A DNA stretch of 64,000 bases, taken from assembly GCF_003323735.1 (NCBI RefSeq), contig NZ_QOIM01000038.1, forward strand, positions 62,001 to 126,000. The letters run 5' to 3'. The stretch's first letter is position 1. The number at the start of each line of letters is the position of its first letter. The notes under the pieces were generated by a model. It was not told the DNA's origin. It searched no databases and saw nothing but the letters and a program-made list of their open reading frames with translations. Source of the stretch: Streptomyces reniochalinae (GTDB lineage: Bacteria > Actinomycetota > Actinomycetes > Streptomycetales > Streptomycetaceae). Positions 11,910 through 53,115 of the stretch are shown in pieces. A program made the translations under genes and the position numbers.

Positions 11910-13382
11910 ATGAACAGGACAATCAGGCGTGCGGCCACCGTCACACTGCTCCTGGTGATGGCCCTGCTGCTGCGGGTGACCTGGGTGCAGATGGTGAACG
12001 GGGAAGCGCTCGCGGACGACGACCAGAACCGGCGGAACACCATCGAGGAGTACGCACAGCCGTTCGGGGACATCATCGTGGGCGGCAAGCCCGTGACCGG
12101 CTCCAAGCGCGCGGAGGGCGGCGGTGACCTGCACTACAAGCGCACCTACACCGACGGCGCCCGCTACGCGCCCGTCACCGGCTTCTCCTCCCAGGTGCGC
12201 GGGGCCACCCAGCTGGAGGGCATCTACCAGGACGTGCTCAACGGCACGGACGACCGCCTCAAGAGCCCCCTGGACATGCTGACCGGCGAGCAGGCGGAGC
12301 CGGGCAACGTGCTCACCACCATCGACCCCGAGGTGCAGCGCGCCGGCTCCGAGGCGCTGGGCGACAAGAAGGGCGCCGCCGTCGCCGTCGACCCCGACAG
12401 CGGCGAGCTCCTCGGCGTCGTCAGCACCCCCTCCTACGACCCGTCGAGCTTCAGCGGCAGCGGCGAGGACGACGACGCGGCCTGGCAGAAGCTGACCGCG
12501 CGCGGCGGCAACGACAAGAACGACGACAAGCCCACGCTGAACCGGGCGCTGCGCCAGGCCGTGCCGCCCGGGTCCACGTTCAAGCTGGTGGTGGCGGCCG
12601 CGGCGCTGGAGAACGGGCTGTACTCCTCCGTCGACCAGCACACCGACAGCCCCGACCCGTACACCCTCAAGGGCACCTCGACGGTCCTGCACAACGAGAA
12701 CAGGGCGGCGCCCTGCGAGGACGCCACCCTGCGGACGGCGCTGCGCTACTCGTGCAACAACGTCTTCGCGAAACTGGCGACCGACCTCGGGGAGAAGAAG
12801 GTCCGCGCGCAGGCCGAGAAGTTCGGCTTCAACGACGAGAAGCAGGACGTGCCCGTCCGTGCGGCCACCTCCAACTACCCGGAGAAGATGGACGACGCGC
12901 AGACTGGCCTCACGGGCATCGGCCAGTTCGAGGTCACCGCGACACCGCTCCAGATGACGATGGTCTCGCAGGCCATCGCGCACGGCGGTGAGCTGGTCGA
13001 CCCGCACATGGTCTCCCAGGTGCAGGACGCCTCGGGCCACACGCTCCAGTCGTACGAGGACCCGGACTCGCACCGGGTGATGAGCCAGGATTCCGCGGCC
13101 CAGCTCAGGTCGGCGATGCAGACGGTGGTCGACAAGGGCACGGGCAGCAACGCCCGGATCGACGGCGTGACGGTCGGCGGCAAGACAGGAACGGCGCAGC
13201 ACGGCGTCGACAACAGCGGCACCCCGTATGCCTGGTTCACCTCCTACGCCAGGACGGACAGCGGCAAGAAGGTCGCGGTGGCGGTCGTGGTCGAGGACTC
13301 GGACGCCGCTCGCGCCGAGGTCAGCGGCAACGGCCTGGCGGCCCCGATCGCGAAGAAGATGATGAAGGCCGCACTGCGGTGA
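11910..13382 (+). CDS. Penicillin-binding protein, PbpA type (class B transpeptidase)
   Basis: 490 residues. A single N-terminal membrane segment (about 7-24, AATVTLLLVMALLLRVTW) is followed by the PbpA-like dimerisation region with GDIIVGGKPVTGS, then the transpeptidase domain. Catalytic motifs are all present: SxxK at Ser222-Lys225 in PPGSTFK, SxN at Ser281 in RYSCNN, and KTG at Lys425 in VGGKTGTAQ. It should cross-link peptidoglycan outside the membrane. Streptomyces usually carries several PbpA paralogues; this copy is not in a division/ftsW cluster. It sits beside a gene remnant and metal-resistance genes, which suggests an accessory paralogue. Confidence 0.9.
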   Translation: MNRTIRRAATVTLLLVMALLLRVTWVQMVNGEALADDDQNRRNTIEEYAQPFGDIIVGGKPVTGSKRAEGGGDLHYKRTYTDGARYAPVTGFSSQVRGATQLEGIYQDVLNGTDDRLKSPLDMLTGEQAEPGNVLTTIDPEVQRAGSEALGDKKGAAVAVDPDSGELLGVVSTPSYDPSSFSGSGEDDDAAWQKLTARGGNDKNDDKPTLNRALRQAVPPGSTFKLVVAAAALENGLYSSVDQHTDSPDPYTLKGTSTVLHNENRAAPCEDATLRTALRYSCNNVFAKLATDLGEKKVRAQAEKFGFNDEKQDVPVRAATSNYPEKMDDAQTGLTGIGQFEVTATPLQMTMVSQAIAHGGELVDPHMVSQVQDASGHTLQSYEDPDSHRVMSQDSAAQLRSAMQTVVDKGTGSNARIDGVTVGGKTGTAQHGVDNSGTPYAWFTSYARTDSGKKVAVAVVVEDSDAARAEVSGNGLAAPIAKKMMKAALR

Positions 13383-13408: not shown

Positions 13409-13454
13409 CCCACAGTACATGGTTTCCTGAATTCAGGAAACCATGTACTGTGGG
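13409..13454. promoter_or_regulatory. 46-bp perfect palindrome overlapping the cmtR promoter/RBS region
   Basis: Bases 13409-13431 and 13432-13454 are exact reverse complements with no spacer, centred on GAATTC. The right end lies 3 bases before the regulator ATG at 13458 and includes part of its GGGAG ribosome-binding site. It is AT-richer than the flanks. It is a strong candidate operator for the ArsR/CmtR-type repressor encoded next to it, and as RNA it would fold into a 20-plus-bp hairpin that hides the RBS. Confidence 0.75.
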
Positions 13455-13457
13455 AGC

Positions 13458-13793
13458 ATGCTGACACTCGCCGCCGACATCGACGTGCTGGCGCGGTTCG
13501 GCCGCGCCCTGGCCGACCCCATCCGCTGCCGCATCCTGCTCGCCCTGCGCCAGGCCCCGGCCTACCCGGCCGACCTCGCCGACGCTTTGGAGATCTCCCG
13601 GACCCGGCTGTCGAACCACCTGGCCTGCCTGCGGGACTGCGGCCTGGTCGTCGCGGTCCCCGACGGGCGGCGCACCCGCTACGAACTCGCCGACGAACGC
13701 CTCGGCCACGCGCTCGACGACCTGCGCACCGCCGTAGTGGCCGTTGAGGCCGACCGCACCTGCCCGGACGCCGACGAGAAGGGCTGCTGCTGA
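13458..13793 (+). CDS. cmtR: CmtR-type ArsR/SmtB family Cd(II)/Pb(II)-sensing repressor
   Basis: 111 residues from the ATG at 13458. The winged helix-turn-helix runs from GRALADPIRCRILLAL to SRTRLSNHLACLRDCGLV, with the wing at VPDGRRTRYEL. Counting from this Met, cysteines fall at positions 24, 57, 61 and 102. Cys57, Cys61 and Cys102 are the metal ligands known for mycobacterial CmtR, so all three are conserved at the same positions. Metal binding should release it from DNA. It precedes a cation transporter gene with zero spacing and follows a 46-bp palindrome that is probably its own operator. It ends in a further Cys pair (KGCC). Confidence 0.88.
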   Translation: MLTLAADIDVLARFGRALADPIRCRILLALRQAPAYPADLADALEISRTRLSNHLACLRDCGLVVAVPDGRRTRYELADERLGHALDDLRTAVVAVEADRTCPDADEKGCC

Positions 13794-14504
13794 ATGACCG
13801 CGAGATCCCCCGGCCCCAGCCCCTCCCGCCGCGACACGCTCACCCGGCGCATACGCCTGCTGGTCGCCGCCACCCTCACCTACAACGTCGTCGAGGCCGT
13901 CATCGCGCTCGCCGCGGGGAACGCCGCCTCCTCCAGCGCCCTGATCGGCTTCGGGCTCGACTCCGTCATCGAGGTCTCCTCCGCCGCCGCGGTCGCCTGG
14001 CAGTTCTCCGCCCGCGACCACACCACCCGCGAGGCTCGCGAGAAGACCGCCCTGCGCATCATCGCGCTGTCCTTCTTCACCCTCGCCCTCTATGTCACCG
14101 CCGACGCCGTCCGCACGCTGACCGGCAGCGGCGAGGCCGACCGCTCCCTGGCCGGCATCGCGCTCGCCGCCCTCTCCCTGGCGATCATGCCCTTCCTCTC
14201 CGCCGCCCAGCGCCTGGCCGGACGGGAGTTGGGCTCGGCCACCGCCGTCGCCGACTCCAAACAGACTCTGCTGTGCACCTACCTCTCCGCCGTTCTGCTG
14301 CTGGGCCTGCTGGCCAACTGGCTGTTCGGCTGGGGTTGGGCCGACCCGGTCGCCGCCCTGGTCATCGCCGCCATCGCCGTCAAGGAAGGCCGCGAGACCT
14401 GGCAGGGCAAGGGCTGCTGCGTCCCGACCGAATCCGCCGGCCGCACCCCCGCCCCGGCAGAAACCGGCGGATGCGGCTGCGCGGTGGGCTGCGCCTGCTG
14501 CTGA
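13794..14504 (+). CDS. Cation-efflux-like membrane transporter with Cys-rich tail
   Basis: 236 residues, starting right after the cmtR stop. About six membrane segments fill residues 20-200, with a cation diffusion facilitator-like arrangement: ALIGFGLDSVIEVSSAAAVA in an early helix and TAVADSKQTLLCTYLSAVLL in a later one. The classical HxxxD metal-site pattern is not seen; an acidic/Cys version (D-S-x-x-E, and D-S-K-Q-T-x-x-C) is present instead. The usual C-terminal cytoplasmic domain is missing and is replaced by a short tail with seven Cys (KGCC and CGCAVGCACC). Together with cmtR this suggests export of Cd or Pb; substrate inferred. Confidence 0.78.
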   Translation: MTARSPGPSPSRRDTLTRRIRLLVAATLTYNVVEAVIALAAGNAASSSALIGFGLDSVIEVSSAAAVAWQFSARDHTTREAREKTALRIIALSFFTLALYVTADAVRTLTGSGEADRSLAGIALAALSLAIMPFLSAAQRLAGRELGSATAVADSKQTLLCTYLSAVLLLGLLANWLFGWGWADPVAALVIAAIAVKEGRETWQGKGCCVPTESAGRTPAPAETGGCGCAVGCACC

Positions 14505-41824: not shown

Positions 41825-41869
41825 ACGCGAATGGCTCCCTCCCGACTGACGGGAGGGAGCCATTCGCGT
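41825..41869. terminator. Bidirectional terminator between convergent genes
   Basis: A perfect 20-bp stem (41825-41844 with 41850-41869) and a 5-base loop, between the hypothetical gene and ctaB. The arms include AATGG/CCATT, so either strand ends with T-containing sequence. Confidence 0.75.
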
Positions 41870-53057: not shown

Positions 53058-53115
53058 ACGATGGACGGCTCGGCCGCGGACCGCAGGGGCGGTGTGCGGC
53101 CGAGCCGTCCATCGT
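53058..53115 (-). terminator. Long hairpin between rbpA and pgi
   Basis: A perfect 20-bp outer stem (53058-53077 with 53096-53115) and a 5-bp inner stem (53080-53084 with 53089-53093). It lies 91 bases after the rbpA stop and just upstream of pgi, so it probably ends rbpA transcription. Confidence 0.65.

Follow-up and report, generated by a model that had tools for sequence, protein, structure and literature searches.

Judging by the title of a 2009 report by Chauhan et al., CmtR reportedly interacts cooperatively with multiple operator sites. In Mycobacterium tuberculosis, CmtR is an ArsR-family sensor of cadmium and lead that is capable of self-regulation (excerpts of PMC3338718). The arms of imperfect inverted repeats, or quasi-palindromes, can become identical by template switching, also in a single event (available part of PMC8794818), and the correction of quasi-palindromes is likewise treated in excerpts of PMC7202029, PMC3820800 and PMC8604942. 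In the present study, a window of 64,000 nucleotides from Streptomyces reniochalinae, by which the whole analyzed stretch of DNA is meant, was found to contain a 46-base palindrome, which is genuine and is an extreme form of a control site that Streptomyces and some related bacteria conserve 5' of a gene for a heavy-metal sensor. Judged from its sequence context, this palindrome is probably bound as DNA by the sensor protein rather than working as a hairpin in RNA. We consider it likely that the palindrome is the operator through which a CmtR-type sensor of cadmium and lead regulates its own gene, with a two-dimer architecture placed over a leaderless promoter, and that its perfection was probably produced by the overwriting of one arm.

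The palindrome occupies positions 13409-13454 of the window (CCCACAGTACATGGTTTCCTGAA / TTCAGGAAACCATGTACTGTGGG); its 23-nt arms are exactly complementary with zero spacer, its right end lies 3 bases 5' of the ATG at 13458, and it spans both the operator and the -10 element. The perfect 46-bp symmetry described in the earlier note was confirmed by reading the arms and by a census of every even palindrome in the 64-kb window, in which this is the longest and the single one with 23-nt arms, the runner-up having arms of 9 nt. At the base composition of the window, the expected number of such palindromes is 4e-8 per window, or 5e-6 per 7.69 Mb, the size of the source genome (70 contigs), the census itself covering the 64-kb window. 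The G+C content of the palindrome is 48%, compared with 71% for the window. Two further strong hairpins with perfect 20-nt arms are present in the window, at 41825-41869 (loop 5) and 53058-53115 (loop 18), the latter of which overlaps the beginning of the longest frame in what is likely a glucose-6-phosphate isomerase gene (named by eye). Taken simply as a long perfect palindrome, the 46-bp site is a curiosity.

On the plus strand, the palindrome is followed by a gene for a cmtR-like ArsR/SmtB regulator of 111 amino acids (13458-13793, with a predicted leaderless start at 13458) and, immediately 3' of it, by a gene identified from a domain match as a cation diffusion facilitator (CDF; Cation_efflux, 13794-14504). 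A penicillin-binding protein (PBP) gene, also assigned from a domain match, lies upstream on the same strand (11910-13382) and is regarded as outside the system. The regulator carries a winged-helix ArsR/SmtB domain (HTH_5, 54.8 bits, cut-off 22) and matches the metalloregulator model NF033788 with 74.2 bits (cut-off 55), and its match to the CmtR equivalog model NF047906 extends over positions 1-104 of 104 with 141.1 bits, 9 bits short of the curated cut-off of 150. Its best relative in the PDB is 2jsc, the CmtR of M. tuberculosis (E 3e-28). Cys24, 57, 61, 102, 110 and 111 are all found in the window protein, and each is present in 139-140 of 141 loci in an unaligned reading; we take Cys57, 61 and 102 to be metal ligands, presumably joined by Cys24, 110 and 111 in the Streptomyces type. 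A CDF homologue was observed at most 150 bp downstream of cmtR in 77 of the 80 named loci (75 from Streptomyces and 5 from Microbispora, the best 80 of 228 confirmed places). The same genome contains a second cmtR-CDF pair (locus L002, 1510-1870; contig C11 near 638,400) with 89% protein identity, whose operator is ordinary and imperfect, with 13 of 23 arm pairs, and offers a natural control for the perfect one in the window.

To describe the site in relatives, 143 distinct loci were aligned from the genomes of the genus and the 80 named loci. The genus sample consisted of 199 genomes, 78 of which had a protein match at E 1e-12 or better, and the genomes of genus and class were even draws that represent a part of the species. 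Three loci without a cmtR hit, duplicates and five divergent or partial loci were set aside; among the latter, L081 carries the exact site and L080 one core change, and L075, L079 and L082 are without the site. A core, for which at least six of the eight TGAATTCA letters had to be present 23-32 bases from the start, was found in 141 of the 143 loci, where the site is conserved but imperfect; its centre lies 26 bases before the aligned start in 82 of these 141 loci and 27 bases before it in 51. Judging by the sequence rows, L070 and L078 seem to be the two loci without the core; they are cmtR homologues with an in-frame TGA (in genomes G173 and G038), with no operator upstream and with a common, unrelated upstream sequence. 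The column consensus over the 141 loci is TnCA-N8-TGAA|TTCA-N8-TGTA, and the outer letters, which were outside the selection criterion, are nearly invariant both on the left (T 138, C 141, A 140 of 141) and on the right (T 140, G 141, T 141, A 140). In other words, the core operator is TnCA-N8-TGAATTCA-N8-TGTA, represented in the window by TACATGGTTTCCTGAATTCAGGAAACCATGTA (13416-13447), and all four half-sites, read in the same sense, share the consensus RRTnCAnG.

From this column conservation, the four half-sites are best read as two abutting TnCA-N8-TGnA dimer sites with centres 16 bp apart, the predicted left site being TnCA-N8-TGAA at 13416-13431 and the predicted right site TTCA-N8-TGTA at 13432-13447. 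The suggestion of the earlier note that the site differs from the usual imperfect 12-2-12 operators of the ArsR family holds, the conserved cmtR operator having the architecture TnCA-N8-TGAATTCA-N8-TGTA instead of an imperfect 12-2-12 inverted repeat. No Streptomyces CmtR operator sequence was found in open-licence full texts among the matches listed, and within these open-paper searches the predicted architecture appears to be a new variant of ArsR/SmtB operators. The arrangement extends beyond the family: of 18 loci from four other families, with 68-90% protein identity, 15 carry both predicted dimer sites at the corresponding position and three the right one only. Among all 28 new loci that were read, four are missing at least one predicted dimer site (L225, L232 and L233 have the right one only, L222 has none); further matches, most with about 50-66% identity, were outside this reading.

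The association of the site with cmtR is highly specific. The exact pattern was found at 64 places in 59 of the 199 genus genomes, and the reversed-pattern control gave none. Sixty-two of these 64 sites are followed on the same strand by a cmtR match 11-41 bp downstream, and the other two adjoin apparent remnants of the operon. In one remnant (G126; L238, 1587-1780) the site is followed by the apparent last part of a CDF gene and a cmtR match is absent; in the other (G070; L239, 1200-1262, minus strand) a second site of that genome is followed by a cmtR fragment with 88% identity over 50 bases. In the reverse direction, the exact site was observed at 62 of 78 cmtR matches, and several others carry one core change. 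The genome of the window itself contains two sites only, each before a cmtR copy, even with two mismatches allowed, and a larger CmtR regulon in this genome was rejected on that count. A looser pattern was found in 136 of 392 genomes of the genus and, class-wide, in 43 of 340 genomes with one reversed-pattern control hit (G408), and an initial pattern taken from the inner repeat gave, besides the window, chance-like matches only. Thus, the proposal of an extended site in a CmtR-type promoter, beyond that of a single ArsR-type dimer, gains sequence support from a site that is conserved and specific for cmtR. The search before cmtR homologues that had been suggested as a check came out in two parts: absence from close relatives, which the earlier note named as grounds for refutation, applies to the perfection but not to the underlying operator, which is kept in 141 of 143 loci. 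The sequences define a highly specific operator of four half-sites, belonging to the CmtR-type sensors of Streptomyces and of some other Actinomycetes and placed on a predicted leaderless promoter, and this definition may serve annotation as well as Cd/Pb biosensors.

The right arm also contains the promoter element. A -10 hexamer, TACTGT, lies at 13446-13451 on the plus strand, and the corresponding positions 15-20 of the right arm fit TANNNT in 97% of the 141 loci, with TACTGT itself in 63, the window included; the gap between this hexamer and the start codon is 6 or 7 nt in 133 of the 141 loci. None of four tested SD-like 4-mers was found at -16 to -5 in any of the 141 loci, positions closer to the start being outside this count. 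In the window, GGGAG (13452-13456) is just 1 nt from the ATG and a normally spaced ribosome-binding site is absent, so that the earlier description of the palindrome as including part of the ribosome-binding site is not upheld. A consensus scan of the locus returned no sigma-70 -35/-10 pair. In S. coelicolor, leaderless transcripts account for 21% of primary starts, the -10 motif is TANNNT, and leaderless mRNAs prefer AUG (76.4%), which is a preference and not a strict requirement (accessible sections of PMC4895711). The cmtR loci share with these the TANNNT near the start codon and the lack of SD-like sequence, and differ in the usual start codon, which is GTG in 118 of the 141 loci and ATG in the window. 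That the right arm holds a -10 hexamer only 6-7 nt away from the start codon, and that SD-like 4-mers are lacking at -16 to -5, suggests that the cmtR mRNA is probably leaderless and starts downstream of the palindrome.

A start after the palindrome argues against an RNA hairpin that hides the ribosome-binding site. In that explanation, control is dual: the cmtR mRNA includes the palindrome, and the hairpin formed there is added to repression at the DNA level. The folding energy is in its favor, since the segment 13383-13520, if transcribed, would fold at -84.6 kcal/mol compared with a mean of -58.9 for shuffled sequences (0 of 200 as low), and read-through from the upstream gene would carry the palindrome into RNA; under the leaderless model, the palindrome would be present in such upstream-initiated transcripts only. 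However, with the -10 inside the right arm, no SD-like 4-mer to be hidden at -16 to -5 and pairing of the spacers near chance in relatives, we regard dual control as very improbable, and an RBS-hiding hairpin as the main function was rejected; the hairpin role suggested by the earlier note is thus unsupported. An even smaller likelihood is given to the idea that the palindrome is mainly a terminator or boundary hairpin of the upstream PBP gene, although it begins only 26 bp past the stop codon of that gene and a fully paired palindrome elsewhere in the genus and class searches (G711) follows a histidine kinase-like frame (by eye) with no cmtR match nearby. A T-run is absent, and on this ground the terminator reading was rejected; a terminator scan found none, and in relatives the site accompanies cmtR (62 of 64 sites) and it is the half-sites, rather than the pairing, that are kept.

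The perfection seems dispensable, because the pairing of spacer positions outside the half-sites is near the expectation from column composition in the 141 loci. The arms are slightly better paired than chance: the mean is 13.48 pairs of 23, compared with 13.10 when the right arms are redealt among the loci (2 of 2000 shuffles as high), and after removal of the three long palindromes it is 13.33 compared with 13.02 (equalled or exceeded in 9 of 2000 shuffles); positions 5-7 and 12 show small excesses. This weak excess may reflect relatedness or partial copying. Counted from the centre, the unbroken run of pairs is 1-9 in 138 of the 141 loci, and the outliers are the window (23), L010 of G197 (18) and L158 of S. 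flaveus (17); further long runs were seen in G464 (18) and G480 (16), and G512 has one core mismatch and is otherwise paired over 32 bp. A larger set of 223 distinct sites was formed from the matches listed by the looser-pattern searches of the genus and of the class, together with 56 further distinct locus sites; four class-wide matches judged chance-like (G250, G413, G441 and G499) and one identical duplicate (G598) were left out. All eight spacer pairs are formed in 8 of the 223 sites, compared with 0.2 expected, and none of 2000 shuffles reaches 8. Seven pairs are formed in 2 sites (2.3 expected) and six in 9 (10.6 expected), and 213 of the 223 sites have fewer than seven. In seven of the eight fully paired sites, position 15 is paired as well, a position at which the left base can vary freely (it is A in 23 of the 213 sites with fewer than seven pairs). 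One of the eight, the CmtR-operator-like palindrome of G711 (L240, 1251-1282, downstream of the histidine kinase-like frame named by eye), has no cmtR match within the 1,987 bases examined.

Template switching in quasi-palindromes would be expected to leave long, fully paired stretches with no intermediates, and the excess of full pairing suggests that one arm is occasionally copied onto the other. A different explanation is that the symmetry was itself selected, either for tighter binding or because the mirrored -10 in the left arm would provide a divergent antisense promoter. The recurrence of perfect forms (8 of 223) and the presence of TACTGT on the minus strand of the mirrored left arm are consistent with selection; yet sites with six and seven pairs are no commoner than in shuffled sequences, so that a ramp of intermediates is lacking and nearly all sites stay below seven of eight pairs, and a leftward transcript would run antisense to the plus-strand PBP gene. 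Selected symmetry is considered unlikely, at perhaps one chance in a few, and remains a rival to arm copying. As for arm-to-arm copying, the direction appears weakly right-to-left in five cases, opposite in G344 and undecided for the window and G197, the differences from ordinary arms amounting to no more than about 1.5 standard deviations. Both the window and G197 have nearest coding relatives with ordinary sites; the relative of the window (L120), 92% identical in coding sequence, has a run of 7. On a tree, six labelled rows need six changes, compared with about 5.9 for shuffled labels, and well supported branches force only one change (with three rows, three changes are needed). Independent origins of the perfect forms are thus plausible, and a shared ancestral palindrome of the window and G197 is undecided. 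We give roughly even chances to the broader hypothesis that template switching repeatedly rewrites the repressor operators of wild bacteria, turning an imperfect two-dimer operator into a perfect palindrome in a single event. If this is true, several bases change at once with the four half-sites kept, operators evolve by jumps and not by point mutation alone, and the 46-bp palindrome is the clearest natural case, so that this copy offers a natural test of operator evolution by arm-to-arm copying. Among the matches listed in open-licence full texts, none described template switching in a repressor operator.

Herein, we propose the following course of events at this locus. Four RRTnCAnG half-sites, ordered forward-reverse-forward-reverse, would receive two CmtR dimers on two 16-bp inverted repeats (TnCA-N8-TGnA), and with dimer centres 16 bp, or about 1.5 turns, apart, the two proteins would lie on roughly opposite sides of the helix. 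When bound, apo-CmtR would cover the -10 hexamer of the right arm and block RNA polymerase. Metal would release CmtR, and transcription of cmtR and the cation-efflux gene would then begin at about the A of the start codon. One arm has probably been overwritten by the reverse complement of the other through quasi-palindrome template switching, and none of these regulatory steps would require the resulting perfection.

Compared with known systems, the locus shows both likeness and difference. The CmtR of M. tuberculosis (Rv1994c) is the closest solved relative of the window regulator, and its cooperative use of multiple sites, as reported, would fit two dimer sites. The partner gene in the window encodes a CDF transporter, which we count as a difference, and the comparison was made at the level of the protein. 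Template switching is known from E. coli, yeast, RNA genes and coding repeats, as far as the available parts of the articles cited above describe it, whereas it is proposed here for a natural repressor operator. With the operators of the SmtB/ArsR family (SmtB, ZiaR and AzuR), the present site shares a location at or close to the promoter and inverted repeats whose half-sites resemble TGAA/TTCA (excerpts of PMC8790569). However, those excerpts describe an imperfect 12-2-12 repeat, whereas here two TnCA-N8-TGnA repeats abut at TGAATTCA.
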